A DNA stretch of 64,000 nucleotides from Fidelibacterota bacterium (GCA_016845785.1 JAERSH010000039.1:1-64000), one strand, 5' to 3'. Numbered from the stretch's first letter, positions 2,225 through 19,611 are shown. Notes: generated by a model from the letters alone, not told the origin. Translations and numbers: made by a program.

Positions 2225-5200
2225 TCATTTCATGAGTACCATTTTCTTTGTGTCTTGATATAGGTGGTTACCCCCGTGGGATATGACCTCTAAGCGGTAG
2301 AGATAAATACCTGAAGGCAATTGATGGCCATGGCCATCTTTGCCAGCCCAAATGAAGCGATGGTTACCTTTACCGAAGGATTGATCCACAGCAATGGCAT
2401 TCAATTCTTCACCCAATAAGTTGTACACCTTCAATGTGATATTGGCATCCTCTATGAGAGATACACGGATATTGGTCACAGGGTTGAAGGGATTAGGGGT
2501 ATTCTGGGCCAATTCAAATGATTGGGGTACCATGCCCATATGAGCCAGTTGATCTTGAATATCATCCGGCGGCCCCACCAATAGTTCGAAATAATAGGGG
2601 TTTTCTGTACCTTGAGATGTGAATGTCACTTCATTAACAGATCGAAGATCATGAGTCAATCCGAGGGCCCTATCTACCAATCGAATATCTTGATAGGCCG
2701 GAATTTGATTCATATCATCTAATTTAAGACTGACAATCCCTTTTATATTGGTCTTAGCTGATAATATCCATGATTGCACTTGTGAATCCTCAGAGCGAAT
2801 ATCTTGGCTATATCGACCCTTTCGGTCGGACCAATTTTCATTGTCAAACGCCACAGAAATATAATCGCCAATCACCGGTGGTTCACGTCTATCTAATTGA
2901 TCCCACTCATCATTCCCATTTGGATGGGTACCGAATGAATTATGGTTATCCTGTTTATTCCCGATGCCAGCTGAAATATTGGCAATCCAATTGAATTGAT
3001 TCAATTCATCTGTTTCATCATTGGGTTCATTGTGTGATCCAGAAATATCTGTGAGAAAATCAAATGTGATTCGCCCAGATGTATTGGCATGAATCCAATA
3101 TCCTTCTCCCGGCTGCAGATTGGTTGTGGGACTATACCCGGAACCGTTGTACCGGTGAAGCTGTTCCTCAATGTCGCCTTCAAATTCCACTTTTGAATTT
3201 GTTAATGAAATTGAAAACGCAAACGGATTACCAATCATGTTCCATCCTTGGGATAAGTTGATGGATGGGGGGTTGATCAATGCAGTTGATTTTCCATTAC
3301 CGGCCAATATGGTTTCACTTTCTTTGGTGATAAGCCAATAGGCGCTGCCCGGTGTGAATGAACCGGAATTCTCTGTATAACCACTGCCTGTCCATCTGAA
3401 TTGTCGCCACAGGGTTGGATCTCGTTCACCCAATTCATCCAATACGGCACTCAACGATGTATTTTGCAATAGTCCCGGTGCAGAAATCATGATGTACTGT
3501 CCGCCCGGGGAATGGGTTAAATGAAGTTCCTGAAAGTCAATTTGAACCTCATGGATACCTGAGAATGAATCCATCCCTCTGGAATCTTCAGCTACTACTT
3601 CAACCAATAATCCACCGGCATTCACCTCCGAACCGGGAATGGTTCCCCGCCATGAGTCGCCCCCGGAATTGGACATAGATACAGTGGATATTTGGGAACT
3701 GCCGCTCACATAATATTCAATCTTTGCCTGTTGAACAGAATGGGTAGACATAATATTCACAATAATCTCTAAATCTTCACCTTCGTTGGCAGACAGACCT
3801 ATCAAGTCATTAATCTGGATTTCAGGGCCGGTCATATCTTCAAATACAAGTTTAATCGATTGAGATACAGGCCAATTAAACTGGGGTGTCATGCCTTGGG
3901 GTTCTCCCGGATCGGGTGATTTGTTATTATTCAAATCAAAGAAACCGCCGATAAAATAATTCTTACCATCTTGAAGGGTCCAATTTAATCCATATGATCG
4001 AATAAAAGGGAATGGTGGGCCTGGATCTTCGCCCACTTGATGCTCATGAATAGGCTGGGTTATGGCCGGATTCTGACCCTCTTCCCACACGCCAAACCAC
4101 ACCTGTCCAAAGGGGTAATCTTGATTCATTTCAACATCTACGGTGAGTGTATGGCCACCGCCACCACCTTTTGTCATATTTATAGGTCCTGCATTTCCAT
4201 ATGATCCTTGGATATTAAATGAGGCAGATATGCCATAAGCTTCATTCGCATCATCCAGATTCCAATCATTATTTTCATCATAAAAAACTATGATATGATA
4301 ATCATTTCCATCTGGAATATCATTGTTCCAAACTGATGTAGGATAACTTCCTGGAAAAGTAAAGGCACCAAATGTCCAATCCCAGGAGCGACTCGACCAG
4401 TAATTAGGATCTTTTCCTGCCGGAATAAGCCCCACTCTTGTTTCACCGCCTGATAAAGATTCTAGACTACCAATGGTTAAATCTATTATTTGGTTTCCGC
4501 CACCACTGCCGCCAAATACATCACCATCCAATTGACCGTTGCCTTCTATTAGACCATGGTTATTTTTATCTGATTCATCTTTTAAGTATTGATTGCTGTG
4601 ATTTGGGTTAATGCTTGCATCAACTAAAATCTCATTACAGTTCCATACCAAAATAGCGTCATTGCCCATGTTGGTTTGATCCCAAATACCACCTGGTATC
4701 CCTTCGAACCCGGATGCATTCCTAAATCGAACGCCATCAATGGACCCTTTGAATTTTTCAAACATGAATTGATTACTAGACGTTGGAAAAATCAAGTTCG
4801 GTATATTTTGAACTGAAGCCACATTATTTCCATCCCAAAAGAAATTCAGATCTTGGTTGTTGTATTCAAAATAGACATGATGCCAACCTGAATTATTCAA
4901 TCCGCCACCCATGAGGTTTGATTCTGGATAAGTAAGGGTTCCAACTTGGTCGATCGTTAATACAAACTCCTTATTGGTATGATTATAGTCGAAGAAAAAA
5001 TCATGGTACGTTCCGTCATTACTTTCCCGCTCAATAATAACTTGCTCTTCATTGGGTTCCGTATGAAACATGACAAAAAATTCCATGCTAAAATGTGAAG
5101 AACCATTTAGTTCGGAGGCCGAAACTTCGACTTCATCGCCTTGTTCAAAATCATATGAACCGCCCACATTCCAACTTTGGGGGGCTCCTTCTTCGATCCA

Positions 5201-5533
5201 TTTTTTAATTTTCTCCTCATCTGCCTGTGATAAATTAGCCCCGCCCTTTGGCATCCTGTCGCCAAAAGCAGTATTGCCTACGATTTTTTGGTAAAGGGCC
5301 GAATTGGCCGGATCATTAGGTTTGACTCGCAAAAATCCAGAATAGGCTTGTGAAGCCACGTTGACCATTTCTGAATAGCTATTGGCCGGAGTCAGGTTTA
5401 ATCCGCCGCTATTATTCCCTGAATTATGGCAAGATGCGGTGCAGGAGTTGTCCCAAATGGGCTGAATTTCACTCTGGTAGTCCTGAGCAATTATAATTGA
5501 AAAAAGCATTGGAAGTATTATTGAGCGTCTCAT
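2225..5533 (-). CDS. Secreted cytochrome-like/LamG-like protein with C-terminal sorting domain
   Basis: A 1102-aa exported protein with signal peptide at residues 1-16. Residues 20-118 form a single-haem c-type cytochrome-like domain of the kind found in large surface proteins: 'IQPIWDNSCTASCH', M94 in 'GDRMPKGG' as likely distal ligand, and 'KIKKWIEEGAP'. The haem motif is CxxxCH (C31, C35, H36), not CxxCH. A LamG/concanavalin-like domain follows (about 125-300), then beta-rich modules and a region shared with the 3203-aa protein ('GWNMIGNPF', 'LQPGEGYWI'). The last 90 residues are a FlgD-like/type A sorting domain ('QNTPNPFNP', 'GIYLYRL', ending 'KKMVLMK'). The ATG overlaps the stop of the upstream CsgG-like gene by 4 nt, so the two are coupled. 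Export probably uses a type IX-like route; surface attachment is inferred. Confidence 0.75.
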   Translation of the reverse strand: MRRSIILPMLFSIIIAQDYQSEIQPIWDNSCTASCHNSGNNSGGLNLTPANSYSEMVNVASQAYSGFLRVKPNDPANSALYQKIVGNTAFGDRMPKGGANLSQADEEKIKKWIEEGAPQSWNVGGSYDFEQGDEVEVSASELNGSSHFSMEFFVMFHTEPNEEQVIIERESNDGTYHDFFFDYNHTNKEFVLTIDQVGTLTYPESNLMGGGLNNSGWHHVYFEYNNQDLNFFWDGNNVASVQNIPNLIFPTSSNQFMFEKFKGSIDGVRFRNASGFEGIPGGIWDQTNMGNDAILVWNCNEILVDASINPNHSNQYLKDESDKNNHGLIEGNGQLDGDVFGGSGGGNQIIDLTIGSLESLSGGETRVGLIPAGKDPNYWSSRSWDWTFGAFTFPGSYPTSVWNNDIPDGNDYHIIVFYDENNDWNLDDANEAYGISASFNIQGSYGNAGPINMTKGGGGGHTLTVDVEMNQDYPFGQVWFGVWEEGQNPAITQPIHEHQVGEDPGPPFPFIRSYGLNWTLQDGKNYFIGGFFDLNNNKSPDPGEPQGMTPQFNWPVSQSIKLVFEDMTGPEIQINDLIGLSANEGEDLEIIVNIMSTHSVQQAKIEYYVSGSSQISTVSMSNSGGDSWRGTIPGSEVNAGGLLVEVVAEDSRGMDSFSGIHEVQIDFQELHLTHSPGGQYIMISAPGLLQNTSLSAVLDELGERDPTLWRQFRWTGSGYTENSGSFTPGSAYWLITKESETILAGNGKSTALINPPSINLSQGWNMIGNPFAFSISLTNSKVEFEGDIEEQLHRYNGSGYSPTTNLQPGEGYWIHANTSGRITFDFLTDISGSHNEPNDETDELNQFNWIANISAGIGNKQDNHNSFGTHPNGNDEWDQLDRREPPVIGDYISVAFDNENWSDRKGRYSQDIRSEDSQVQSWILSAKTNIKGIVSLKLDDMNQIPAYQDIRLVDRALGLTHDLRSVNEVTFTSQGTENPYYFELLVGPPDDIQDQLAHMGMVPQSFELAQNTPNPFNPVTNIRVSLIEDANITLKVYNLLGEELNAIAVDQSFGKGNHRFIWAGKDGHGHQLPSGIYLYRLEVISHGGNHLYQDTKKMVLMK

Positions 5534-6234
5534 TTTCCACCTCCAATCATAAACATGCCGCTCGTGGGTGGATCCGGTGGTTCAGGGAGATCTACATCAC
5601 CACCTGCCTGCATGGCTGCATAGGCACCACCGCCAGCCAATACCAGCAATATCAATGTATTGCGAAACCATTTGCTGCCGCTTTTTTTCTTTGGCGCTTC
5701 AGCCACTTCTTCCATCGGGGGTTGAATTCCAGCCTTGGCTAATAAATCTTGTGGCGCCTGAAGACCTACCAATTCCCATGCCACAATTTGGATTTGGGTT
5801 AAAAGGCCATCCACCTCACCTTTGTATGTTTTACTAACCGTTTTTTCTGTCTCGCCAGTTTCAACAGCAAACATCCGGGCTTCAATCGTATAGGAGTTTC
5901 CAATCTTTCCAAATGATCCTGTAATCATTTTTTGGACACCCAGCAAAGCACCGATCTCTGCTGCACATTCGGCAGAGGTACAACCAGATTGCTGGAAACC
6001 TTGCTCTTCCATGATTTCGCTCATTTGATTTCTTTCCACCATGATGAGGGCATCGGTCTGAACCAACTCAGAACCCAATCGTTGGGTGAGAACTTGTGCT
6101 TCTTGGGTGGTAATGCCAGATCCTTCAAAATCAAGGACCGCTGCGGTGGGCTTTGCTTGGGAACCATCATTCACCTGTGCAACAAGGCAGGATGATAAAA
6201 TGGCCAAAATGAAATATTGTTGTATCCGCTTCAT
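5530..6234 (-). CDS. CsgG-like protein with C-terminal membrane helix (copy 1)
   Basis: A 234-aa protein from the ATG at 6234, chosen because AGGAG lies about 8 nt upstream and the signal peptide 'MKRIQQYFILAILSSCLVAQ' starts there; a longer frame begins at 6297. The body has the CsgG/FlgO-type core 'AVLDFEGSGI', 'ERNQMSEIMEEQGFQQSGC', 'GALLGVQKMITGSFGK'. A single membrane helix lies near the C-terminus ('NTLILLVLAGGGAYAAM'), followed by a Pro/Gly tail. Unlike CsgG it has no lipobox. Over the best-conserved 94 residues 71 are identical to the second copy at 16014-16745. It immediately precedes and overlaps the 1102-aa surface protein gene. Family known: CsgG forms the outer-membrane pore for curli. 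Inferred here: a periplasmic or envelope helper for the adjacent giant protein. Confidence 0.7.
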   Translation of the reverse strand: MKRIQQYFILAILSSCLVAQVNDGSQAKPTAAVLDFEGSGITTQEAQVLTQRLGSELVQTDALIMVERNQMSEIMEEQGFQQSGCTSAECAAEIGALLGVQKMITGSFGKIGNSYTIEARMFAVETGETEKTVSKTYKGEVDGLLTQIQIVAWELVGLQAPQDLLAKAGIQPPMEEVAEAPKKKSGSKWFRNTLILLVLAGGGAYAAMQAGGDVDLPEPPDPPTSGMFMIGGGK

Positions 6235-6310
6235 GAGAGACTCCTGTTTACGTGCAAACTTACAGAAAAAGTAACCTAAATCCTGTGATACAAGCAACAG
6301 GGTTCATATA

Positions 6311-6338
6311 AAGAAAAAGGGGCTGTTTCCAGCCCCTT
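6311..6338 (-). terminator. Rho-independent terminator after the giant beta-helix gene
   Basis: A perfect 9-bp stem (AAGGGGCTG / CAGCCCCTT, 4-nt loop) is followed, in minus-strand sense, by a T-rich run. It lies about 60 nt beyond the stop of the 3203-aa gene and splits the two CsgG-like/giant-protein pairs into separate transcripts, or at least lowers expression of the second. Confidence 0.8.
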
Positions 6339-6398
6339 CTCTTTTCAATATCATTGCTTATCCTTAAGAAAGGTCTCAGCAAGTTGTATCTCTACTTT

Positions 6399-9300
6399 CT
6401 ATTTCAAAAATATCATTTTCTTTGTTTTATTTAAGACGACCTTACCCTGTCCATTTCGAATCAATGCATGGTAGAAATACACACCGGTGGATACCTTATC
6501 TCCCAAATTATTCCGACCATTCCAAATGAAGTTGTAATAGCCTGCAGGCCGGTGGTCATTATGGGCCAGTCTCGTTATCTCTTCACCCAAGAGGTTGTAG
6601 ATGATTAAATCCACATTTGCATCTTCTTCCAGACTGATCATGATTGATGTCTGAGGATTAAATGGATTGGGATAGTTCTGAGCCAAGGTAAACGCATCGG
6701 GATAGAGACTCACACCTGCATTATTATCCTCAACAAATTTCTTCGTACCCACCACCAGTCTTAACTCTTGTTTAAGATAGCTGTCTGAGCCCGTATTGGC
6801 AAATCGATACTGGCTATCCCATTCTAGATTCTTCGCCTGTTTTGTGGTCTTATTGATGAGGAATACATCATATTCATCGGGGACATAACCCAGTCCTTCA
6901 AATGTGATGTAAGTCCGCTGACCATTGGTGGGCGCAAAGACTTGAAGATCCCAGTAATGGCCTTCTTCGTTGGGCTTTCTTATATCCTTTGCATAGAGGT
7001 CCGGTGTTTCTTGACGATTTCTATTGTCAATGCGTAGGACTACATCGCCAGGTACACCGGGGGGCTCGAATTCATCTAATGGATCATATCCATCAGAAGC
7101 GAAAGAGCGAACACCTACGCTATTCAGTTCATCCCGGGCATTGCCCGTGGTGGCGATCATATCGATAACCCATTCATTCCCATCCATGGGATAATCGTCG
7201 GGATTCATTGCTTTTGACATTTTACCAAATGTGGATCCCCGAACATCAATATTCAGCTTCGTTGCACCGCCAGACTTAAAGATATACCCTTTCCATGGCT
7301 GGAGGGATGAACCGGCGCTGGACCAAGAACTGTTCCACGTATAAATGGAACCAGCATCACGAACATTGGTGCCGTCCTCAGTATAGATATTATCTAATGA
7401 GACATTGAAATTGTAAGGCGATCCAAAGAACTTCCACTGGCCTGTAGTCACACCAAAACCATAAGGCGGTTCCGTAGGTGTGGATGTACCTTGACCAAAA
7501 TCAAAATGCATTTGTGGGTTGTCTGAATATTTATCCGGATCGTAAATCAAGAAATATCCATTCCCCATGGTGACGGAAGATGGATTCTCTTGCCATCCAT
7601 TACTATAACCGTAGAGTCGATAGTTGAATTCATTCGGTCCTTCATTATCCGGATCCAAAATAGATGTAATGGCGCTCTTCGCATTGCCTACATCAAATGG
7701 GATAGAGAAAAACACATAATTGGTGGAATCCGTACCACCAGGCACGCCGCTGGGCCATCTGGATGCGGTAGAGACTGAATTCTCTGTCCGAACCTTCACA
7801 GAATGGAATTCACCTTCTGCTGGCCAATAACGCGTATTTCCTACATTATCTTCAGATTCAATATAATATTCTAACCCATCTGATTTCACGTCGCCGCCCG
7901 GAATACTATAAGAGCCTGAACTCATATCTACAGATACAAATCCGCCGCCACCGCCAGACCGACGATAATAGAGGAATGTTTCTTTTACGCCAGAAGCACC
8001 ATCGGATACATCAACCGTAATCGCTGGTGTGGTAGATCCTTCATCCACAACTGTGAGTGGATTACTATGGTTGATAAGAGGGGCAGTCACATCCACACCA
8101 AAATGTACTGTATCATTCGACCATGTGATATTATCAGCAAAGTCCCATGCTTCCACATGCCAAGAATAGTTCCCATCGGGTATTGATGTGGGGGCATCTA
8201 CATAGAATTCCTCATTGGATTCATTATAGGTGACCTCATTAATTTGAAATTTTGCATAATGATTTTCATTCAAGAATATATGGAATTCCTTAATCCCCGA
8301 AGGATAATCACCTAATTCCGACCAATGGAATCGAGGTTTATCGCTTTCCCATACATCTGGACTGGGGTAATGGAGCCAAAATTCATCTGGAGACTGGTTA
8401 TCAAATTTTGCCGTAACAGCAGATGCACTATCCTCTGAATCATTCCCAAGCTCATCCACTAGCCATACTTTGTATTGCCATTCACCCAATTCCGGAACCT
8501 CTACCTCAACAGTATTCACATCAAACTGTGTCTCGCTAGTTCGGTTGATATATTCGGGATAGTCATCACCAAGTTTCACGACAGCGCCTAAGAATTCTCG
8601 GCCATAAGCGCCTTCATCAGGGTTTGTCCAAGAAATCGTGAATTTGTTCTGATTTGTCCAATCACTAGGACTAATTGCTATATCCGAAACTGGTGGTGGT
8701 GCACCAGTTACCTGTCGCTCAATGATATATAGTTCTGTCACCCTGACTGCATCAGCAATATCCACACCTACACGGAATTTAAATCCTGTGATTCCGGTGG
8801 CTTTCACTTTTACTGATGCTTCACCATTGGATGTAACTGTATCATTTTCTACTATTGTGACGTGTTTATCTGTCGGGGCAATAAACCATTTCACTCTTTC
8901 TTCAGCCGTAACAATATTGCCCTGGTTATCATTGGTTTTGATAGTGATATTAAACTCTTGATCTCTGGATAGATAGGTTGTATCACGACTTATGGGAGAT
9001 ATATCATCAGCCAAATCAAGAATATACTTACTGGCACCAAATTCATAGGCGCCAATATCAGTTGTACCAAGCCTATAATAATTTCGGATATCTACTGTCG
9101 GTGCTTTTTGGCCACCATAATGATCTGTTCCGGCATCTATCAATTGGCTTGTAAAACTGAGTCTAAAATCTTCACCACCAGGATTTTTAAATTTGGGCTT
9201 ATGTGTTGTCATGGTTTCTGCATTGAACCATGGCTTGCCTTCTTCGTCATCCACATTAAGGTGACTCATATCAATATTGGCACCATCATCTTTTAGAATT

Positions 9301-12300
9301 GAATTGTCATTCCCGGAGCGATTGCCATAAACAATCGTGTTAAACCAAAGGCCACCTTGGTTGCCGGCGCCCATGGCCATTATGCCACCACCACCATGGG
9401 CATAATTCCCATTTCGGTCTCTGAATTCATTCCCAACAATAGTATTATTAATTAATACAGATTGCCCAACTGTACCATTTCTATCATGAATACTGAAATT
9501 TAATCCGCCACCGCCACCGTGGTCTCCTTTTCCTTGGTTGCCAACAACTAATGAATTAATAATGGTAATGGGTGATTCTGAAGAAATTGCACCTCCATGT
9601 GCACCAGCATTCACACTTTCTGCATAATTTTTTACAAAAACACATCGCTCAAATGTGGTGAATTCTGTCATGGTCTCAGTCCAATCATTCAATCTCACTG
9701 CACCCCCATTCGCATTCCGATCTTGACTGCGTACCGAATTGCTTTCAAATCGACAATCAATAAATGTACCCATACTGGCACCACCAGCAATACTTACAGC
9801 GCCACCCCATGATGATTCAGATTGGTTATTGACTGCATTCCATTTAAATATGGTGTGCCTAAATATAGGTGCTGAATATGAGTACGGAGTATGGTCACTA
9901 CTAACCACGATTGCACCACCTTGAGTTTTTGCGCTATTATTCTCAAAAACACAATTAAAAAACTCGGGCGATGCATTCTGCAAATGAATAGCACCACCTT
10001 TTCCCCAAATATTTCCAGAGGCATTATTTTCAGTCCAAATACAATTTACAAATTTGGGAGATGGGTTTTCATGGACATCTGTCCCTTTATCGTCATCCCA
10101 ATATGTATCTCCACGCAATCGAAAAGAGCCGCCTTCCGCTTGATCTCCATCGTGCATCCCCGAACCGCGGGTGAATGTGATATTAGCAAAAACAAGTGTG
10201 CTGTCATAAGCACCCTCTATTTCAAAATGATTACCGCTATTTTCAGCATCTAATATTACTTCATCTGCACTGGCTGAAAGGTCACCATAAATACTTAGCG
10301 GAATGCCCGTGTCTAATCGAATATTGCGGTTCCCCGGTCCTGTGTGAGTGCCCGCTAATAAAATAATTTCATGACCCGTTTTTGCTGAATCAATTGCTGT
10401 CTGTAAGTCTGATAATGGTGATGATTGATCTCCATCATTGGTATTATTTCCATCCACAGCCACATACCACTTTGGTCCTCGATAATATGGAATGGCATGA
10501 ACCGTCTCAGAATGTTCACCCATGTTTCCTTTTTCATTAATCGCAGCAACAGCAAAGAAATATTCTGTTTTATTAATTAATGTATCACTAGTGGTATAGC
10601 TATTTGTAGTAACGCTGGTTAAACTATCCGCTGAGGAAGGAATAAAATCCTTTACGGTAGACATATAAACTGTGTACGAGGCGATATCCGTTTCTGAATT
10701 TGCATCCCATGCCAAGGATACGAGTTTATGACCGCCCTTCGCGGCAAGATTGGCCACTTGTGATGGGTATGGGCTGGCTTCTAATTCATGCTCAAAGGCA
10801 CCCATATCTGGGGATGAACCGGATGGGTTGGGTCTTGAACTGCCATTGATATCGACATTCGGTGCATAAATACCATCAAAACTTGAAACGCCTTTTCCGA
10901 TTAAGTAACTGGCATCAGAGAGTGAATATACATGGTTGGTTGTATCGGTGAATTTTGGATCCTTGGAATAGAGGTTTTCAGTAATAGGAATCCCAGAATA
11001 CACATCTTCAACAACATTATGACCAAATATCAGTGGAGTCTGATTATCCCATTCAATATCTTTATTGGATTCAGATTCATTGCTCCAGATTATATTATTA
11101 AACCAAACGCCATTTAAGTTGTTGCCGCCATACATATTTATACCGCCACCTGAACCGGTTCTTCTACCTGCGTTTGCACCCACATATTCAATCGTGTTAT
11201 TCACAATCGTATTATTAATTAGGTATGTCCTTGGATATTCTTGCTGATTCGTATTTTGATTATAACGACCATGGATTTCAAAAGATATGGCGCCACCACC
11301 GGGCCAAAATCCATTACCACCTGTATACACATGGTTATCATAAAATAGGGAGTTGGTGATTTTCACGCCACCACGAATATAGAGGGCACCGCCACGGTTG
11401 TTCCCACCATTAGCTGCTTCATTCGTATTCCCATTAAATGTGGTTCGATCAATTGTTAATTCTTCATTATTAGTAATATCATAATCATCACCAACAAAAA
11501 TCGCACCACCGGAAGGTGAGCCTACCGTTGAGTAGGCCTGATTATTTGAAAAAGTACAATCTAAAATTTTAGCGGATTCCGGACCATGAAAATAGATTGC
11601 ACCGCCTTCAACACTAAAGTTGGTGTTCCCTGCAAAATATGCTTTATTTTGACTAAAAGTGGTGGATCTAAATTGAGGAGAACCATCATTAACATATACA
11701 GCGCCACCTTGATTACTACTTCCGGTTCCGTCAACTGAATTGCTATCAAATAAGCACGATTCAAAAATGGGATCACCATTATCGATATAAATTGCACCAC
11801 CATACCAAGAGGCATTATTTCCGTAAAAAGTGCAATTCTTAAACTTTGGGGATGCCTTTAAAGTTATATTTTGTTGGGTCGATTGGTTCCAACCGTTATA
11901 TCCAACTATACGGATAGATCCGCCTTCTGAATTTTTACCACCATTTTTAAAGGTAATGCCTTCAATAACAAATGTACTATCGATGGCATGGGATCCATCA
12001 TTAATATTTAAAACAAGATGCCGCCCAAATCCGCCAGCATCAAAAATGACTTTTTCTTTACCATTAATTGATTGGATAACCAATTGCTTGGATCCATCAA
12101 TATACACCTCTCGATTATCTCCTCCAGAGTAAGTACCATCACCGATGAGAATTGTATCTCCCGTGGCTGCTTTTTCTACTGCTTTCGAAAGAGACAGTAA
12201 CGGCGATGCTTCTGAGCCTTCATTGGAATCAGATCCACCTGAATCAGTAACGGCCATGTACCATACTGGCCCCGTATAAGCGGGCGTAATATCTATGGAT

Positions 12301-15300
12301 TGAGAAGCAGCCCCTACATAACCAGAGCTGTTAACAGCCGCAACGCGGAAATAATATCGTGTCGCATTATTTAATCCTGTATTGGTGTATGTAGTTGTCG
12401 TGGTGGAGTCTATCAAATAGGAGCTTCCAGCTGTAAATGATGATGTATCACGATATACAAAATACTTGGCCATATCCGTTTCAGAATTGGCCGTCCAAGA
12501 TAATGTTACAGACCCATCCCCACCTTTTGCTTTCAGTCCTGCCACTTGAGAAGGATAGGGTGTTGTAGAAAGTCTGTTTTCATAGGCCCCTAAATCCGGA
12601 TTAGATCCTGATGGATTTGGTCGACTATTGGCTACACCAGTAATATCTGTAGTGGGTGCACTGTAATTTTCATAAGAAGATACCCCTGCGCCAATCAAAG
12701 TACTTCTGTCATGAAGTGCATATGGGGTGGTTCCGGAACCTACAAATTCCGGATTTTCTTTTAGATTATTATCCCCAAATGAGGTTGCATCTACATATTG
12801 AATTGAATTATTTGACCAGCGAAAATCATTATTGTCCCGATGAAAATATATAGATTTCTGTTCATCGTCTGAACTATTGGCCTTATTCCCCCAAACAATA
12901 TTATTAAATAAATATGCCTGCTGTGCATGCTGAAAATAGATACCACCACCATGTCCGTTATTTGAGGAACCTCTGGCTTCATTCAGAGTCAATGTGTTAT
13001 TGATAAAAATCAATTCACCATTATATTCATATGAATTTGTACTATTATTCCAGTCGCGTGAAATATCAGTATGAATGGCACCACCGTGACCGCCATTATA
13101 GTTAGTCCCCCATTGCTGAACGCTTATACCACCTTCGGCAATATTATGGTAAAACAAACTGTTTTGGATTACAGCCTTTGCCCGTTGGTTTATATAAATA
13201 GCACCACCAGCCGCGGATTGGCCTCCATTACTTCCGGGTACAATGCTATTATTAGAAAAGGTGCAATTTTCAATACTAATATCAATCCGGTCATCATTTT
13301 GATTGTTATATTGAGGAGAAATGGCGATTGCACCACCGCCACCGTTGTTATTTGAATTTGTGGTCACTTTATTTGAATCAAACACACAATTGGTAAATAT
13401 GGCAGGGCCATGAATAAAAACGGCACCGCCACTTGCCTGCCATTGATTTGCACCTGCATCTGATTCATTTCCATTAAAGGTACAGTTTTCAAATACGGGG
13501 GCATTCCCACGGCTATTCCAATTCCCTTGTTTAAAAACGGCACCGCCACGACCTCTGTTAATATTATAATTGAATTCTACATTTCGAAAATGTGGTGCTG
13601 CCCATGTATCGATATACACAGCACCACCATCATTGTAATCCCATTCACCCGTACCTGATTTTGATTTATTACTTTCAAAATTTATATTTTGGAATAATGG
13701 CCCTGATGAAGACCAAGATGTACTACTCTGATCCCATTTAGCATTGATATAGACAGACCCACCCCGGTCTTGGCTTGATGGCTGTCCATTTTTAAGTGTT
13801 AAATCCATCACCTTAAAATTGGTATCAATGGCTGCTGTACCCATCCCAAAATAAAAATGGCGATCTTTGGATTGAGCGTCCAATATGGTTGAAGTTTTTC
13901 CCTGCCCCTTTATGATTAAGGATTTAGATCCATTAAAATTCATATTCCAATAAGAACTGGACGTGTACTGATGGGTGCCCGCTCCGATGGAAATTGTATC
14001 GCCTGTAGACGCAGAATCAACAGCCATTTTCAAAGAGAAAAATGGTGCTGATGAGGATCCTTCATTTGAGTCGCTGCCACCATTTGCAGATGTTGCCACG
14101 TACCAAGTTGGTCCTTTATAATAGGGCATTGCACTCACTTCGGCAGAAGGCGATCCTTCATAGTCGTCACTATCTACAGCCGTAATTAAAAAATAATAGG
14201 TCGTCTTATTGGTCAACCCTGTTAATGTCGTAGATATAGTTGACCCACTGGATGGATGAGATACAGTTGCCACAAGACTATCGGCGGATGTTGAGAATCC
14301 AGAAGTTCGGCTTTGATAAATCTTGTAGGATGCCATATCCGTTTCAGTATTTAATGCCCATGTTAAAGTAACCTGCTGATTCGCAACAGTCGCAGAAACT
14401 CCGCTTACATTTGTTGGATAGGGAGAAGTTCCCAATGCATTTTCATATGCACCAATATCGGGATTTGATCCTGACGGAGACGGTCGGGAGTTTTTATTGA
14501 TATCATCGCTTGAAGCGCTATATGTATGGCTTCCAACTGTTAGAGAAGCAATCCCGGCACCAATTAACTGACTACGATCATGAAGAGAATAAGGATAAGT
14601 ATTTGATGAATCAAAAGCCGGATCCACACCTATTTTATTATCATTACTAGAAATATTATATTCAGACCCATATTTTGATCCATCAAAATACTGAAATGCA
14701 TTATTTGAAAAATTAAATTCTGAATCTGTATTAATATTGATATCAAAGTCTGTGCTATCAGCATTATTATTAACCGAATTTCCATGAAAAACATTATTGA
14801 TCATGACTGAGTTTTCACGGTATGAATAATATATAGCACCACCTTGCCCGGAGTTGTTTCCGCTACCGGTTGCCACATTATTTACAAATGTATTATTAAT
14901 AAAAACTACTGGGTTATATGGCTCATAAGTTGAACCGGACCAGCGATCATACATTTCTATCCGAATGGCACCACCCTCTCCATTTGAATTATAACTGCCC
15001 CATTGGTCCGACCATGCAGAAGATGTAACCGAATTGCTATTAAATAAACAATTTTCAAAAATGACTTTTCTTCGACCTGAGATATTAACAGCGCCACCTT
15101 TTGCGCCACCGCCCCCATCGCCGGCCAACACCTGATTTTGTTTAAAAATGGTTCGTTGAATATTGATGACCGTATCTACAGCCGTGGTACTACTTGTATT
15201 CACATATGACCCGGAAATGTAAATGGCCGCTCCATAATTATTCCACGAACTATTCATTTTTACCAAATTAGAATCAAAAGTACAGTCAGAAATATTAGGG

Positions 15301-16010
15301 GATCCCTGTACATAAATTGCGCCACCCCAAGATTCATTGTATGGATAGGGTGTCAACTCATTTCCATAAAATGTTGACCGCTCAATGACGGTATTAATCG
15401 AGTCAATTGAATTATTAACATAAATTGCGCCACCATAAGCATCCGAACTATTGTACTTAAATGTACAATCTCTTATAATCGGCGCACCCCAAGTGAAGTA
15501 CATTGCGCCACCGCTCATCCAATAATTTGAGGCACTATGTTTTGTTTGATTTGATTCAAATATGCAACTGTCAAATACAGGATTTGATCCGTTTGTCACA
15601 TAAATGGATCCACCCGAATCATTTGAGTTGGGTTTTCCGTTTTTCAAAGTAAATCCAATTAATTTAAAACTGGAATCCACTGCTGTCCCTGTAAAATAGA
15701 AGTGCCGGTCCGACTGTTCTGCGTCCAGAATAGTTGAAGCGGCTCCACTTTCAGAATAAATATATAATTTTTTACTGATACTTAGATTTCTATTGAGACT
15801 ACCTGTATAAGTCCCCGCTTTCACCAGGATAGAATCGCCATCCACAGCAATTTCAATAGCCTTACTTAAGGATTGATAAGGTGAACTGGATGTTCCCGCT
15901 CCGGATCTATCATCCCCATTTGTTGCATCAACATATATGGGATTATGGGTTTTCTCTGCAAAAGCGAAGGAAACAAGAAAAATACTAAGGGATAATAATT
16001 TTTTCATCAT
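6399..16010 (-). CDS. Giant secreted protein: four parallel beta-helix modules, FN3 linkers, C-terminal sorting domain
   Basis: A 3203-aa exported protein with signal peptide ending near 'FAFA' (residue 18). Four homologous modules (about 24-630, 631-1245, 1246-1845, 1846-2325) each open with 'WYVAxxxxGxDSNEGS..SP' plus 'A...GDTI.I..GTY'. Each continues with right-handed beta-helix repeats rich in 'GGAIYI', 'FENCxF' and 'FNNTxV', and ends in 'RPNPSGSNPDxGAYE'. FN3 domains link modules 1-2, 2-3 and 3-4. Residues about 2330-3100 hold Ig-like domains and the 'GYxIF'-type region shared with the 1102-aa protein. The last 90 residues form the sorting domain ('QNYPNPFNP', 'KKMIFLK'). RBS GGAGG is 8 nt before the ATG. 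It starts 3 nt after the CsgG-like copy 2 stop. Beta-helix repeats occur in adhesins and polysaccharide lyases; I see no catalytic signature and favour an adhesin or structural surface role. Confidence 0.8.
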   Translation of the reverse strand: MMKKLLSLSIFLVSFAFAEKTHNPIYVDATNGDDRSGAGTSSSPYQSLSKAIEIAVDGDSILVKAGTYTGSLNRNLSISKKLYIYSESGAASTILDAEQSDRHFYFTGTAVDSSFKLIGFTLKNGKPNSNDSGGSIYVTNGSNPVFDSCIFESNQTKHSASNYWMSGGAMYFTWGAPIIRDCTFKYNSSDAYGGAIYVNNSIDSINTVIERSTFYGNELTPYPYNESWGGAIYVQGSPNISDCTFDSNLVKMNSSWNNYGAAIYISGSYVNTSSTTAVDTVINIQRTIFKQNQVLAGDGGGGAKGGAVNISGRRKVIFENCLFNSNSVTSSAWSDQWGSYNSNGEGGAIRIEMYDRWSGSTYEPYNPVVFINNTFVNNVATGSGNNSGQGGAIYYSYRENSVMINNVFHGNSVNNNADSTDFDININTDSEFNFSNNAFQYFDGSKYGSEYNISSNDNKIGVDPAFDSSNTYPYSLHDRSQLIGAGIASLTVGSHTYSASSDDINKNSRPSPSGSNPDIGAYENALGTSPYPTNVSGVSATVANQQVTLTWALNTETDMASYKIYQSRTSGFSTSADSLVATVSHPSSGSTISTTLTGLTNKTTYYFLITAVDSDDYEGSPSAEVSAMPYYKGPTWYVATSANGGSDSNEGSSSAPFFSLKMAVDSASTGDTISIGAGTHQYTSSSYWNMNFNGSKSLIIKGQGKTSTILDAQSKDRHFYFGMGTAAIDTNFKVMDLTLKNGQPSSQDRGGSVYINAKWDQSSTSWSSSGPLFQNINFESNKSKSGTGEWDYNDGGAVYIDTWAAPHFRNVEFNYNINRGRGGAVFKQGNWNSRGNAPVFENCTFNGNESDAGANQWQASGGAVFIHGPAIFTNCVFDSNKVTTNSNNNGGGGAIAISPQYNNQNDDRIDISIENCTFSNNSIVPGSNGGQSAAGGAIYINQRAKAVIQNSLFYHNIAEGGISVQQWGTNYNGGHGGAIHTDISRDWNNSTNSYEYNGELIFINNTLTLNEARGSSNNGHGGGIYFQHAQQAYLFNNIVWGNKANSSDDEQKSIYFHRDNNDFRWSNNSIQYVDATSFGDNNLKENPEFVGSGTTPYALHDRSTLIGAGVSSYENYSAPTTDITGVANSRPNPSGSNPDLGAYENRLSTTPYPSQVAGLKAKGGDGSVTLSWTANSETDMAKYFVYRDTSSFTAGSSYLIDSTTTTTYTNTGLNNATRYYFRVAAVNSSGYVGAASQSIDITPAYTGPVWYMAVTDSGGSDSNEGSEASPLLSLSKAVEKAATGDTILIGDGTYSGGDNREVYIDGSKQLVIQSINGKEKVIFDAGGFGRHLVLNINDGSHAIDSTFVIEGITFKNGGKNSEGGSIRIVGYNGWNQSTQQNITLKASPKFKNCTFYGNNASWYGGAIYIDNGDPIFESCLFDSNSVDGTGSSNQGGAVYVNDGSPQFRSTTFSQNKAYFAGNTNFSVEGGAIYFHGPESAKILDCTFSNNQAYSTVGSPSGGAIFVGDDYDITNNEELTIDRTTFNGNTNEAANGGNNRGGALYIRGGVKITNSLFYDNHVYTGGNGFWPGGGAISFEIHGRYNQNTNQQEYPRTYLINNTIVNNTIEYVGANAGRRTGSGGGINMYGGNNLNGVWFNNIIWSNESESNKDIEWDNQTPLIFGHNVVEDVYSGIPITENLYSKDPKFTDTTNHVYSLSDASYLIGKGVSSFDGIYAPNVDINGSSRPNPSGSSPDMGAFEHELEASPYPSQVANLAAKGGHKLVSLAWDANSETDIASYTVYMSTVKDFIPSSADSLTSVTTNSYTTSDTLINKTEYFFAVAAINEKGNMGEHSETVHAIPYYRGPKWYVAVDGNNTNDGDQSSPLSDLQTAIDSAKTGHEIILLAGTHTGPGNRNIRLDTGIPLSIYGDLSASADEVILDAENSGNHFEIEGAYDSTLVFANITFTRGSGMHDGDQAEGGSFRLRGDTYWDDDKGTDVHENPSPKFVNCIWTENNASGNIWGKGGAIHLQNASPEFFNCVFENNSAKTQGGAIVVSSDHTPYSYSAPIFRHTIFKWNAVNNQSESSWGGAVSIAGGASMGTFIDCRFESNSVRSQDRNANGGAVRLNDWTETMTEFTTFERCVFVKNYAESVNAGAHGGAISSESPITIINSLVVGNQGKGDHGGGGGLNFSIHDRNGTVGQSVLINNTIVGNEFRDRNGNYAHGGGGIMAMGAGNQGGLWFNTIVYGNRSGNDNSILKDDGANIDMSHLNVDDEEGKPWFNAETMTTHKPKFKNPGGEDFRLSFTSQLIDAGTDHYGGQKAPTVDIRNYYRLGTTDIGAYEFGASKYILDLADDISPISRDTTYLSRDQEFNITIKTNDNQGNIVTAEERVKWFIAPTDKHVTIVENDTVTSNGEASVKVKATGITGFKFRVGVDIADAVRVTELYIIERQVTGAPPPVSDIAISPSDWTNQNKFTISWTNPDEGAYGREFLGAVVKLGDDYPEYINRTSETQFDVNTVEVEVPELGEWQYKVWLVDELGNDSEDSASAVTAKFDNQSPDEFWLHYPSPDVWESDKPRFHWSELGDYPSGIKEFHIFLNENHYAKFQINEVTYNESNEEFYVDAPTSIPDGNYSWHVEAWDFADNITWSNDTVHFGVDVTAPLINHSNPLTVVDEGSTTPAITVDVSDGASGVKETFLYYRRSGGGGGFVSVDMSSGSYSIPGGDVKSDGLEYYIESEDNVGNTRYWPAEGEFHSVKVRTENSVSTASRWPSGVPGGTDSTNYVFFSIPFDVGNAKSAITSILDPDNEGPNEFNYRLYGYSNGWQENPSSVTMGNGYFLIYDPDKYSDNPQMHFDFGQGTSTPTEPPYGFGVTTGQWKFFGSPYNFNVSLDNIYTEDGTNVRDAGSIYTWNSSWSSAGSSLQPWKGYIFKSGGATKLNIDVRGSTFGKMSKAMNPDDYPMDGNEWVIDMIATTGNARDELNSVGVRSFASDGYDPLDEFEPPGVPGDVVLRIDNRNRQETPDLYAKDIRKPNEEGHYWDLQVFAPTNGQRTYITFEGLGYVPDEYDVFLINKTTKQAKNLEWDSQYRFANTGSDSYLKQELRLVVGTKKFVEDNNAGVSLYPDAFTLAQNYPNPFNPQTSIMISLEEDANVDLIIYNLLGEEITRLAHNDHRPAGYYNFIWNGRNNLGDKVSTGVYFYHALIRNGQGKVVLNKTKKMIFLK
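9030..15940 (-). repeat. Four tandem homologous protein-coding modules (about 1.4-1.85 kb each)
   Basis: Within the giant gene the module start motif ('WYVA' or 'IYVDA', then a GDTI-type segment) recurs at about nt 15940, 14110, 12270 and 10470. The module end motif (PSGSNPDxGAYE and variants) recurs before each new start and near 9030. The fourth module lacks the FN3 linker. Repeat boundaries are approximate and recognised at the protein level; at nucleotide level the copies have diverged. Confidence 0.75.
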
Positions 16011-16013
16011 GGT

Positions 16014-16745
16014 CTAACCCTCCGGCAATGTAGGTGCTTCAGGGAGAGGCACAGGTTTCGGGTCAAAAAGTCCAGCGGCATAAGCGCCACCCAATCCACC
16101 GCCAATAAGGATGACGGCCCAAAGGGTCCGCTTGGCGCCCTTGCTCATGGGTTTTTTCGGCTCAGCGACCGGGAGCACAGCCAAAGAAGGATCCGCTGCT
16201 TCAATGATGGCTACTTTATCCGCAGGCGGTGTGAGGCCTACAATTTCCCACGCTACAATTTCAATCACAGTTAAAAGATTATCTACAGGGCCTTTATATG
16301 TTTTGCTCACGGTTCGAATCGTGGCACCGGTTTCGACAGAAAACAATTTTGCATCAATGGTGTAGGAGTTTCCCAGCTTACCGAAAGCACCGGATACCAT
16401 ATTTTGCACACCAAGGAGGGCACCCACCTCAGCCGCACATTCAGCAGAAGTACAACCGGATTGCTGAAATCCTTGCTCATTCAGGATTTCTTCCATTTGG
16501 TTTCGCTCGACTAAAATCACAGCATCGGTGACAACCATTTCACTTTGGAGGCGATCGGTAAGTGTAGCTGCTTCCATTTGAGAAATACCGCGCCCTTCAA
16601 AATCTAGAATGGCTACAGTTTGCTTCCCCTCTGCAATCATCGCAGATGTTTGATCATTTAGCACATTTTGGACACCCTGTTGCGCATGTCCCCACACCAT
16701 GCCTAACACGAGACTCCAAACGATTGTTTTTTTGTATACCCTCAT
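16014..16745 (-). CDS. CsgG-like protein with C-terminal membrane helix (copy 2)
   Basis: A 243-aa paralogue of the protein at 5530-6234. It has a signal peptide (residues 1-22, 'MRVYKKTIVWSLVLGMVWGHA'), a CsgG-type core ('AILDFEGRGI', 'VERNQMEEILNEQGFQQSGC', 'GALLGVQNMVSGAFGK'), the conserved Cys pair 'GCTSAEC', then one membrane helix near 205-227 and a Pro-rich end. No lipobox is present, so it is not anchored like canonical CsgG. The stop is 3 nt before the start of the 3203-aa gene, a tight pairing that mirrors copy 1 and its giant partner. Upstream lie the TlpA-like, LPP20-like and FlgT-like genes, all minus strand. Function is unproven; export or anchoring of the neighbouring surface protein is the simplest inference. 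Confidence 0.7.
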   Translation of the reverse strand: MRVYKKTIVWSLVLGMVWGHAQQGVQNVLNDQTSAMIAEGKQTVAILDFEGRGISQMEAATLTDRLQSEMVVTDAVILVERNQMEEILNEQGFQQSGCTSAECAAEVGALLGVQNMVSGAFGKLGNSYTIDAKLFSVETGATIRTVSKTYKGPVDNLLTVIEIVAWEIVGLTPPADKVAIIEAADPSLAVLPVAEPKKPMSKGAKRTLWAVILIGGGLGGAYAAGLFDPKPVPLPEAPTLPEG

Positions 16746-16812
16746 AATTGGCTCACATTCTGCTTAAGTTTAGTAAGGCTGCCCATTATCTCCCTGTGGG
16801 CTGGCTCACAAT

Positions 16813-17460
16813 TTACCTGGTTCCGTTTTTTGGTGGCGGTAGTTCCGCCAAGAGACGTTCAATCTCTTCGGATAATTCCTTGGTGAATTTTTCTTCTTCC
16901 CCCTCATGAAACCCACGCCGTGTTAAGGTTATTTTTCGATTCCCGTCCATCATGAACAAGCGCGGTAAAATTTGTGCGTTATAACGTTTCATGGCTGACC
17001 CTCGGGTATCATAAAGGATCTGCATGGTGACCCCCTTCTCCCTTAAAAATGGACCTGCTTTGGGCACATTTTTATAGGCCATCCCATAAACTTCCCCCGG
17101 GTTATTTCGAGTCGCTTCTGTAATATCAATCAGAAAAAATTTGATGCGTTCATCTTTATATTTTTGATATACCTCTTCAAGGATCGGCAATTCTTTCATG
17201 CAGGGCTTGCACCACGTAGCGAAAAAGCTCATGAGTACAGCATGACGATCTGGTTGGGTGGTGAATTTCCGCAATCGCTTCCCTTCTTCTTCCGTCCAGT
17301 TTTTTAAAAATTCAAACTGGCCCGGGGCATACATCAATGCCCATGAGGGCGCAATGTCCCCTATAACGAGATCTTTCTTTTCGCCGTTTGCTTTCGATGA
17401 ATCCTGCCCCACCAATAGGGCAACCATCATGATTAAGGTTGAGATTAATTTCAATCTCAT
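16813..17460 (-). CDS. TlpA/ResA-like thioredoxin-fold protein
   Basis: Taking the start at 17460 (AAGGA about 11 nt upstream, clean signal peptide 'MRLKLISTLIMMVALLVGQ') gives 215 aa; in-frame starts at 17472 and 17526 also exist, the latter overlapping the gene before it. The thioredoxin active site is 'ATWCKPCMKELP' (Cys 84 and 87), after 'VLMSFF'. The cis-Pro region is 'ILPRLFMMDGNRKI'. TlpA/ResA/CcmG proteins are periplasmic disulfide reductases or oxidases, often serving cytochrome c maturation. Here it precedes two CsgG-like genes with a conserved Cys pair and a CxxxCH cytochrome-like protein, any of which could be its substrate; this link is inferred. Confidence 0.8.
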   Translation of the reverse strand: MRLKLISTLIMMVALLVGQDSSKANGEKKDLVIGDIAPSWALMYAPGQFEFLKNWTEEEGKRLRKFTTQPDRHAVLMSFFATWCKPCMKELPILEEVYQKYKDERIKFFLIDITEATRNNPGEVYGMAYKNVPKAGPFLREKGVTMQILYDTRGSAMKRYNAQILPRLFMMDGNRKITLTRRGFHEGEEEKFTKELSEEIERLLAELPPPKNGTR

Positions 17461-17498
17461 GGTAGTCCGCATCCTTTTCTGTTTGTTACTATAGGTAT

Positions 17499-18308
17499 TT
17501 AATCCAACAGGATCAATACGCGGCAATCTTTCAGTACATTGTGACTTCGATTTGCCGCATCAATTTTTGAAACATCTGCATTGGAAATGGTGATATCAGT
17601 CCTGTTCGTCCCCGCCGTGGCAACCCCTTTGACCACCAAGGGATTCCCCATGACCCTCGGGTCTTTTTGGGCCGCTTCTAATGATTTGGAATAACCTGCT
17701 ACGCCATTGGTAACTGCATATTCCCGACTATATGTGCCGGGGCCATAAACTGCATTTCCATTTTGATCTAAAATTCTTGGTGCCATGGCCGGCCGCGCTT
17801 TCAGTCCGCGCGCATCTATAATTACGCCAGTAATTCCCCCAGTGGTTGGCGTGGCGGTTTCTGCCGGTGTCCCTGCTGCTGGTGTGGGAATGGTGACTGG
17901 CGGTAAAACAATATCGGATATACCGCTCATGGGTACTGCATATTCCACTTCAACAGATGTGTCACTTAAATATTTGGGCTGTCCCGTTTGGCGGGCACCG
18001 CGAATAAATCCTTGGACCTTTGTGTTAATGACATCATCCACCATAGCACCGCTCATTGTGGTTTCGCTGGTGAGGGTTACCCCGTTCACGATTTCAATCA
18101 ACTGTCGCAATGCATCCTGTTTCGCGATCCGAAGTGCCATTCGTCGGGCTTGCCCTGCATTGATTGCATTTTGAGGGACAAATCCAATTCCCACGGCTGA
18201 AATAGTTTGATCTGAATAATTAATACTGCCCTTTTCCATTTGGGTGACCACACCTTGTGAAAAGGCCGTGCTAAATAAAATGGCTATTAATACGATTAAT
18301 CTCTTCAT
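17499..18308 (-). CDS. LPP20-like periplasmic protein
   Basis: Start at 18308 gives 269 aa with signal peptide 'MKRLIVLIAILFSTAFSQG' and GAGG about 7 nt upstream; an in-frame ATG at 18323 overlaps the previous stop. Residues about 20-135 resemble the LPP20 fold: 'AVGIGFVPQNAINAGQARRMA' then 'AKQDALRQLIEIVNGV' and 'VQGFIRGAR'. A Pro/Ala/Thr linker ('PPVTIPTPAAGTPAETATPT') leads to a C-terminal domain starting 'GVIIDARGL', with no further family I recognise. LPP20-like domains accompany FlgT/FlgO-type proteins in envelope assembly clusters, which fits its FlgT-like upstream neighbour. Confidence 0.6.
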   Translation of the reverse strand: MKRLIVLIAILFSTAFSQGVVTQMEKGSINYSDQTISAVGIGFVPQNAINAGQARRMALRIAKQDALRQLIEIVNGVTLTSETTMSGAMVDDVINTKVQGFIRGARQTGQPKYLSDTSVEVEYAVPMSGISDIVLPPVTIPTPAAGTPAETATPTTGGITGVIIDARGLKARPAMAPRILDQNGNAVYGPGTYSREYAVTNGVAGYSKSLEAAQKDPRVMGNPLVVKGVATAGTNRTDITISNADVSKIDAANRSHNVLKDCRVLILLD

Positions 18309-18319
18309 AGGATACCTCA

Positions 18320-19435
18320 TCATTGAACAACTTCTGCTGTGATTCTATTGCCGGTTAATCCGGTGACCTTAAAATTTAATCCATCTGGACTGGTTTGGGC
18401 CAATCCCATGGCGAGCGCTTGGGATTTTCCTTCAAATTCAACTTCATATTCTGCTACACCATCATTTAAACTTTTTGCGTAGGCATTCCGAATCCCCGAA
18501 ACAGTCTGTGCTTTTAGGAAAGATTCAAATGTCATGTACGACATGAAGTCCGCCCCTTTCAACACGATATATACTTTGATAAAATTGGACTGTTGGGTGC
18601 TCCATTTTGTTATGAGCTGGGAGATAATATTTGTGCCTAATACACCAGCAGCTTGGTTCGCTGCATTCACGCCGGAAGTGGATGGAGAAATATGGGGCTT
18701 TTTCCCACGGGCTTGGGGCACAACAGCTAATATCTCCCCTGTATCTGCCCGAATAATTTTTGCATTTATATCTGCCTGCCCGGAATGCATATTGTACACC
18801 TTCCCTCCAGATGAAATTTTAGCTGTTCCAATCACGATCACTTCTGCCCCAAGCTGGGCTGCAATTTTCGCTGCGGCCGATACATTGCCCGCTAAGGCTT
18901 GTTCATAATCCTGCTCTCCTCTTAGGGCTTGGACTAATTGGCGATCCACCACGTCAAACCCTTTATCATAGAACATGGATAATAGTTTGGTTTCTGCAAA
19001 ATCTGTGGGTGTATTGTCAATTAAATTTTCTTCACGAATCATAAATATAATGCGAGGGCGATTCATGGCATTGAGCAATGTTTGAAGGGCCGCCTCATCA
19101 GCCATGACCTGATCGATCATATCCGTTACTTGCGCTTCAATGGTGATTTCAAAATTGCCGTCAGGGCCTTTGGTTTCTTTGATAATCTTAAACGATTTGA
19201 CAAATCCCTGGGCTTTTGAGTAAATATTATCTTCAATGGATGTCGCCGTAACCGTGGTGCTTGAGGTCATATATGCCCCCAATCCTTGTTCAACCGCATC
19301 GCGCTTGGCTTGCTCAACGGCCGCATCTTTTGTGAGGCCATAGCCAACACCTGTGGCCGTTTGTCCTTGGGCCCACAGAAGTGATAATCCTGTGAGGCAA
19401 AGTAGTATCAGTTGCCTAAAAGAGAATTTTACCAT
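18320..19435 (-). CDS. FlgT-like / CsgG-fold periplasmic protein
   Basis: From the ATG at 19435 this is 371 aa with signal peptide 'MVKFSFRQLILLCLTGLSLLWAQG'; other in-frame starts are at 19441 and 19462, and the RBS is weak. The N-terminal domain resembles FlgT_N ('GVGYGLTKDAAVEQAKRDAVEQ', 'SKAQGFVKSFKII', 'FEITIEAQV'). The middle part resembles the CsgG/FlgT-M fold ('GFDVVDRQLVQAL', 'AAQLGAEVIVIGTAKIS', 'IIRADTGEIL'). It ends 'EVEFEGKSQALAMGL ... RITAEVVQ'. In flagellates FlgT stabilises the outer-membrane ring, but no flagellar gene is present here. It heads the surface-protein operon and its stop overlaps the longer reading of the LPP20-like gene, so a structural role with the CsgG-like proteins is plausible. 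Confidence 0.6.
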   Translation of the reverse strand: MVKFSFRQLILLCLTGLSLLWAQGQTATGVGYGLTKDAAVEQAKRDAVEQGLGAYMTSSTTVTATSIEDNIYSKAQGFVKSFKIIKETKGPDGNFEITIEAQVTDMIDQVMADEAALQTLLNAMNRPRIIFMIREENLIDNTPTDFAETKLLSMFYDKGFDVVDRQLVQALRGEQDYEQALAGNVSAAAKIAAQLGAEVIVIGTAKISSGGKVYNMHSGQADINAKIIRADTGEILAVVPQARGKKPHISPSTSGVNAANQAAGVLGTNIISQLITKWSTQQSNFIKVYIVLKGADFMSYMTFESFLKAQTVSGIRNAYAKSLNDGVAEYEVEFEGKSQALAMGLAQTSPDGLNFKVTGLTGNRITAEVVQ

Positions 19436-19611
19436 ATTCATCCATCTTAAGTTCGTATACATTTACAGGGTAAATTATCCAATTCGATGACGAGAAACAA
19501 TATATAATGATAAGAGATGTGATCTGGATCAAATGGCTGAATTCCCGTTATTTTTATTTATGGTTGATTCACGGTATATTCTCTGTAACCAAACTTTTTA
19601 AGGAATGCATT

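Follow-up and report, generated by a model that had tools for sequence, protein, structure and literature searches.

Two adjacent gene pairs in a Fidelibacterota genome were found to belong to a conserved unit, in which a secreted protein of CsgG/LpoB-like fold ending in a hydrophobic helix and a proline tail (the partner) is encoded directly upstream of a giant surface protein that carries a module of ~450 aa before its sorting domain. Comparison of gene order and sequences across the phylum showed tailed partner and module giant to be genetically coupled, tailed partners being restricted to giants with the pre-sorting module, and tail and giant being lost jointly. The gene pair is real and conserved and, as far as the literature was searched, undescribed, with full-text searches of the open-access literature returning no publication that deals with this pairing or with the CsgG-like proteins of Marinimicrobia. 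It is proposed, at roughly even chances, that the partner is a substrate-dedicated component of the type IX secretion system (T9SS), either an escort or an anchor, with a fold unrelated to that of PorP/SprF.

The window, that is the whole stretch analysed, comprises 64,000 nucleotides (contig C39:1-64000) of a 2.16 Mb genome on 93 contigs, 93% complete, whose relatives carry the names Ca. Marinimicrobia or Neomarinimicrobiota. On its minus strand, to which the coordinates below refer unless otherwise given, the order is FlgT/LipL46-like, LPP20-like, TlpA-like, CsgG-like 1, giant 1, hairpin, CsgG-like 2 and giant 2. The cluster is headed by a FlgT/LipL46-like secreted protein (18320..19462; NF033164 LipL46, E 1e-11, with weak matches to PF03783 and PF17680 FlgO), the position of which is kept in most relatives. 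Likewise conserved in position are an LPP20/FlgP-like secreted protein (17499..18323) and a TlpA/ResA-like thiol-disulfide oxidoreductase (16813..17526; PF08534, NF002854). Of the three names given to these genes in the first-pass annotation, FlgT-like and TlpA-like are supported, while LPP20-like is weak, with PF02169 matching at no better than E 0.12. Partner 1 (P0004; 16014..16745) is separated by 3 nt from giant 1 (3203 aa; 6399..16010), and partner 2 (P0002, read from its ATG; 5530..6234) overlaps giant 2 (1102 aa; 2225..5533) by 4 nt. Between the two pairs lies a terminator-like hairpin followed by a T run (6314..6341), its 12 pairs making it the best in the region. The coordinates, short gaps and paralogy annotated earlier for the two pairs hold on re-reading; the partners share 62% identity over 171 aa (E 1e-71), and over their best-matching 94 aa 72 residues are identical, where 71 of 94 core residues had been claimed.

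In both pairs the GGAGG that resembles a ribosome-binding site for the giant falls within the final codons of the partner gene (16017-16045 and 5530-5545), hence the partner endings LPEG and GGGK. The divergent neighbour of the cluster (19507-20739, plus strand) encodes TPR repeats and two S-layer homology domains, and in relatives the corresponding position is taken by a gene of 370-430 aa on the opposite strand. Contig C21 of the genome carries a third CsgG-like unit, of a different kind.

The recurrence of the pairs was examined in the neighbourhoods of ~80 homologues of CsgG-like 1, which were present in 51 of the 61 own and related genomes, together with 79 GTDB loci picked by CsgG-like sequence alone. 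The usual order was FlgT–LPP20–TlpA–CsgG1–giant1, often CsgG2–giant2, then FecR and a CHASE2-cyclase, the position of the last two being occupied in this genome by P0008 and P0009. This order is kept in many families, is conserved across the order and extends to other classes of the phylum. As many contigs end within the giant, only decisive cases in the sample picked by CsgG-like sequence were counted, and in 17 of these 32 the next gene encoded a sorting-domain protein or one of at least 1000 aa, compared with 21 of 430 background genes (Fisher p 2e-12). The 15 "other" cases mostly had small inserted genes, mobile elements or broken frames before the giant. Pairing by chance is ruled out, the arrangement being seen many times in this genome and its relatives. 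The first-pass annotation had made its reading depend on the pairing being found in other genomes with a large sorting-domain protein as the usual downstream neighbour; the pairing does recur across the phylum, and the association with such a next gene is strong.

The gap between partner and giant was also seen to be a repeated insertion site (L141, L142, L146, L149, L163, L171, L173, L204), the insertions being, by eye, small nucleotidyltransferase/HEPN-like pairs, a GIY-YIG-like protein and REP-type transposases, with the giant retained behind them in several cases. It should also be noted that four records titled Rhodobacteraceae, Flavobacteriaceae, Legionellales and Opitutia (L135, L136, L182, L186) contain typical Marinimicrobia clusters, and either their titles are probably wrong or the bins are mixed.

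The two giants are homologous over their last ~540 aa (27%, E 6e-51) and differ in their fronts, with beta-helix and fn3 repeats in giant 1 and LamG with an N-terminal CxxCH motif in giant 2. The start of giant 2 (5533-5350) resembles a small cytochrome c in its CxxCH region (CTASCH), with no Pfam call. Within this region the pre-sorting module (6684..8084 in giant 1; 2510..3829, 562 bits, in giant 2; alignments A2 and A4) takes up the ~450 aa that precede the sorting domain. The genome has exactly these two copies of it, its other sorting-domain proteins lacking the module. The AlphaFold model of the module is all-beta and confident (pLDDT 86), and a structure search with it returned no whole-module match, the hits being limited to immunoglobulin-like and sorting domains (PPAD, FlgD). 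Partner and module co-occur in the 61 genomes (p 2.6e-6) and in 245 genomes of the phylum (p 6e-16), statistics which ignore descent. Distances between partners and between modules are correlated (Mantel r 0.48, p 2e-4), and this gives weak support only because shared descent contributes to it. The module is also found without a tailed neighbour, in a class of proteins of 606-629 aa (among them L246-L248, L251 and L257) and in family f7, and can thus function independently of the partner. Restriction of the module to CsgG-linked giants, which is true for this genome, was rejected phylum-wide on account of these 606-629-aa proteins.

The partner consists of a signal peptide, an LpoB/CsgG-fold domain with a CxxxxC motif, a basic Gly-rich linker, a hydrophobic helix, an acidic linker and a PPxxP tail. 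In partner 1 the motif is formed by Cys98 and Cys103 (16437..16454), both invariant in alignments A1 and A3, and the helix (residues 202-226) and tail ...LPEAPTLPEG are encoded at 16017..16142; partner 2 likewise has CxxxxC and a C-terminal helix, and ends in the tail LPEPPDPPTSGMFMIGGGK. Both partners match PF03783 (30.1 and 27.8 bits, cut-off 20.8) with partial coverage (7-97 and 38-97 of 210), and P0004 scores over the cut-off for PF13036 LpoB with P0002 just under. The AlphaFold model of P0004 (pLDDT 82) has LpoB as its best structural match, followed by TolB, GNA1162 and PelC; with E 2e-7, TMt 0.71 and an rmsd of 2.1 A to LpoB (4q6z), it belongs by prediction to the LpoB/TolB-N fold. A sequence profile run against the PDB gave LpoB as the sole match, a weak one, and the partners fall far below the cut-off of the LpoB equivalog TIGR02722 (24.6 and 20.5 bits, cut-off 110.55). 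The hydrophobic helix is ~20 residues long, contains GGG/GGA and is flanked on average by 4.8 K/R on its N-side and by 0.3 K/R and 3.5 D/E on its C-side, a lean seen in 32 of 33 cases. In a protein whose domain leaves the cytoplasm by way of a signal peptide, this charge pattern is opposite to the positive-inside rule, making an inner-membrane stop-transfer less likely and an outer-membrane helix, of which Wza is a precedent, plausible. A PEP-CTERM/LPXTG-type processing signal was considered for the tail and is disfavoured, as the motif comes after the helix and the basic residues before it.

The tail follows the module giant closely. Where the next gene encodes a module giant, the tail is present in 19 of 20 CsgG-like proteins by the strict pattern and in 20 of 20 by eye; directly before FecR it is found in none of four, before a cohesin gene in two of 28, both pattern artefacts, and in the background the pattern occurs 11 times in 1067. 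Seven CsgG2 copies from three genera have neither tail nor module giant and form one clade, which makes this a single loss event. One of these tailless copies (L126) adjoins a sorting-domain remnant of 255 aa, an indication that the element linked to the tail is the module and not the sorting domain; the sorting domain alone is disfavoured in this role for the same reason. Outside the cluster, module giants have directly upstream a secreted protein with a helix and a PPxFPE-like tail (L231, L233, L239, L242, L243, L249). In most of these diverged proteins CxxxxC is still recognisable, and the one in L249 bears an OmpA domain (PF00691), that in L243 being alike by eye. In other orders and classes, a tailed protein and a module giant are adjacent (L281, L282, L285, L287) or separated by one gene (L283, L284, L286, L295), and in L295 the CsgG match is down to 59 bits with a tail of LPEPPSPPE. 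The dedicated envelope system suggested at first pass for sorting-domain proteins is thus retained for particular giants and narrowed to those with the ~450-aa pre-sorting module.

Similar endings were observed in genes downstream of module giants: a 252-aa protein in L245, at the FecR position before CHASE2, ends with a helix and PPDWPEP, and a 218-aa protein in L250 ends with a helix and PPGWPNS. The tail may therefore extend beyond CsgG-fold proteins.

A second unit was seen in eight loci (L011, L092, L097, L101, L107, L168, L174, L178), consisting of a CsgG-like protein, a cohesin lipoprotein (PF00963) and a giant. Its CsgG-like protein has one or two CsgG domains and the C-terminus LxYDPxxxQPQLRFSIALD, its giants mostly have a sorting domain and lack the module, and FecR-CHASE2 often precedes it. 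In L104 (9242-13396), L106 (3170-7309) and L184, the cohesin lipoprotein and giant are preceded by proteins of 1379-1384 aa that combine a long Ig-like region and two CsgG domains in a single chain.

The leading rival explanation, which is thought unlikely though to be taken seriously, is that partner and giant are operon mates without contact. The partner would be a general envelope-maintenance protein of LpoB/FlgO/FlgT type, co-expressed with the main surface proteins, that senses or reinforces the envelope during synthesis of the giant, with the FecR-CHASE2 cyclase as readout. The nearest structure being LpoB is in keeping with this, as are the OmpA-type peptidoglycan-binding domain in L249, the PEGA repeats seen by eye in L119 and L209, and the FecR and CHASE2 cyclase genes that come after the pair. 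Joint regulation or descent could also yield the gene order and co-occurrence, and the tail loss amounts to one event, both of which count against the proposal of a T9SS partner. However, the link is confined to module giants and tailed partners; a CsgG-like protein that has a different kind of neighbour is tailless, and the tail was lost together with the giant.

Translational pausing, in which the proline-rich end and the overlapping start codon would make production of the giant depend on the partner's export in the manner of SecM/MifM, is considered improbable. The 4-nt overlap or 3-nt gap, the GGAGG within the last codons of both partner genes and the position of the proline-rich end ~40 residues past the helix start would suit it, but the tail is kept where the giant lies 42-289 nt off or behind an inserted gene (L061, L082, L083, L163, L171), and type 2 tails continue for about ten residues beyond the prolines. 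The possibility that the tail is a by-product of ribosome-binding-site coding was rejected because the tail is kept across such long gaps.

Slightly less probable again is a role in disulphide or haem assembly, with the CxxxxC domain taking over redox equivalents from the TlpA-like protein and handing them to the giant. CxxxxC is present in all 62 tailed relatives, giant 2 has its CxxCH, and the TlpA-like gene is adjacent here and recurs next to module giants in L283, L286 and L298; however, no cysteine is conserved in the shared module, and the tail would be left unexplained.

That the partner is a genuine secretion pore of the CsgG type, serving the giant or a fibre, is very improbable, since, although PF03783 is over its cut-off and CsgG is among the structural matches, CsgG superposes at 8-14 A rmsd compared with 2.1 A for LpoB, the tight strand connections of the P0004 model contain no insertions and leave no room for the two transmembrane beta-hairpins, no lipobox was found in 60 of the 62 tailed relatives (a doubtful string occurs in two, P0002 among them, and the P0004 signal cleavage site has no Cys), csgF (PF10614) had no match in the genome (G000) in a search with a positive E. 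coli control, and the giants have type IX sorting domains in a genome with SprA, PorU and PorV. The CsgG name given at first pass, and the idea of a pore attached to it, are accordingly replaced by LpoB/TolB-N/PelC as the nearest predicted fold.

The T9SS proteins PorU (573 bits), SprA and PorV are encoded in the genome with matches over cut-off. The SprA homologue (G000:C9:46412-52156) is in separate pieces with one internal TAA, either an assembly error or a frameshift. Both giants have a signal peptide and the C-terminal sorting domain reported for them earlier, with matches below the curated cut-offs, that of TIGR04183 included, and these domains align to the C-terminal domain of PorU itself. 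Because PorU, SprA and PorV-family proteins are present, the giants are, by sequence, very probably T9SS substrates. PorP/SprF (TIGR03519) had no match in this genome and one over cut-off among 245 genomes of the phylum, the single match indicating that the search works.

If the partner is indeed a dedicated T9SS component, both it and the giant would be exported by Sec. The partner domain would then be periplasmic and might form a ring like those of PelC and CsgG. The TlpA-like protein encoded in the cluster would act on its cysteines, and the C-terminal helix would fix the partner in a membrane, more probably the outer one in view of the charge pattern. The proline tail could bind the pre-sorting module and either hand the giant on through SprA or hold it at the surface, and the FecR-CHASE2 cyclase, downstream in most relatives, may report on partner–giant assembly. 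The partner would thus stand in functionally for the PorP/SprF proteins lacking in this lineage. Against this proposal, a Sec-exported protein with such a helix could equally stop in the inner membrane, and the sorting domains of the giants look to be of type A, which PorV, being present, should already serve. A more far-reaching version is put forward tentatively, namely that these proteins are a second, phylum-wide class of substrate-dedicated T9SS partners, periplasmic and of LpoB/CsgG fold, in which the C-terminal helix spans the outer membrane, an exposed PPxxP tail captures the module, PorP/SprF is replaced for giant surface proteins and the assembly reports to a cyclase through FecR.

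How T9SS partners are chosen is understood in Bacteroidota alone, where the PorV and PorP/SprF barrels are known. Marinimicrobia, ocean bacteria that are abundant and for the most part uncultured, have a T9SS and giants but, according to the present search, hardly any PorP/SprF. Because the tail is short and, like the substrate module, can be delimited, the selection or retention of giants becomes testable with two purified pieces.

Among known systems, CsgG belongs to the same superfamily, as the PF03783 matches indicate, and differs in having the hairpins, lipobox and CsgF that the partners lack, and in serving curli subunits where the context here is T9SS substrates. LpoB, an activator of PBP1B that acts on cell-wall synthesis, is alike in predicted fold and in the weak profile match; the partners, however, lack its lipobox, have the CxxxxC, C-terminal helix and tail in addition, and are encoded beside sorting-domain giants, not a penicillin-binding protein. 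PelC and FlgO/FlgP/FlgT are ring-forming members of the superfamily, with PelC and FlgT among the structural matches and FlgT-like and LPP20/FlgP-like proteins at the head of the cluster, but no exopolysaccharide or flagellar context was seen around it. The closest likeness in organisation is to PorP/SprF. In Flavobacterium, type B substrates have an sprF-like gene immediately downstream that is required for their secretion (PMC12618676), and PorP-like proteins retain substrates of this kind at the surface and can link to the peptidoglycan-binding PorE (PMC9143113). There, as here, a partner gene adjoins that of a giant or adhesin-like T9SS substrate, with several pairs per genome (PMC12618676, PMC9143113); recognition near the substrate C-terminus may be likened to the pairing with the pre-sorting module, and where those systems can include PorE, some of the present partners have an OmpA domain. 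PorP/SprF are 14-strand outer-membrane barrels encoded downstream of their substrates, whereas the Marinimicrobia partner has an LpoB/CsgG fold with one hydrophobic helix and is encoded upstream. By analogy, the Marinimicrobia pair follows the same logic as the sprF/PorP pairs with an unrelated fold.
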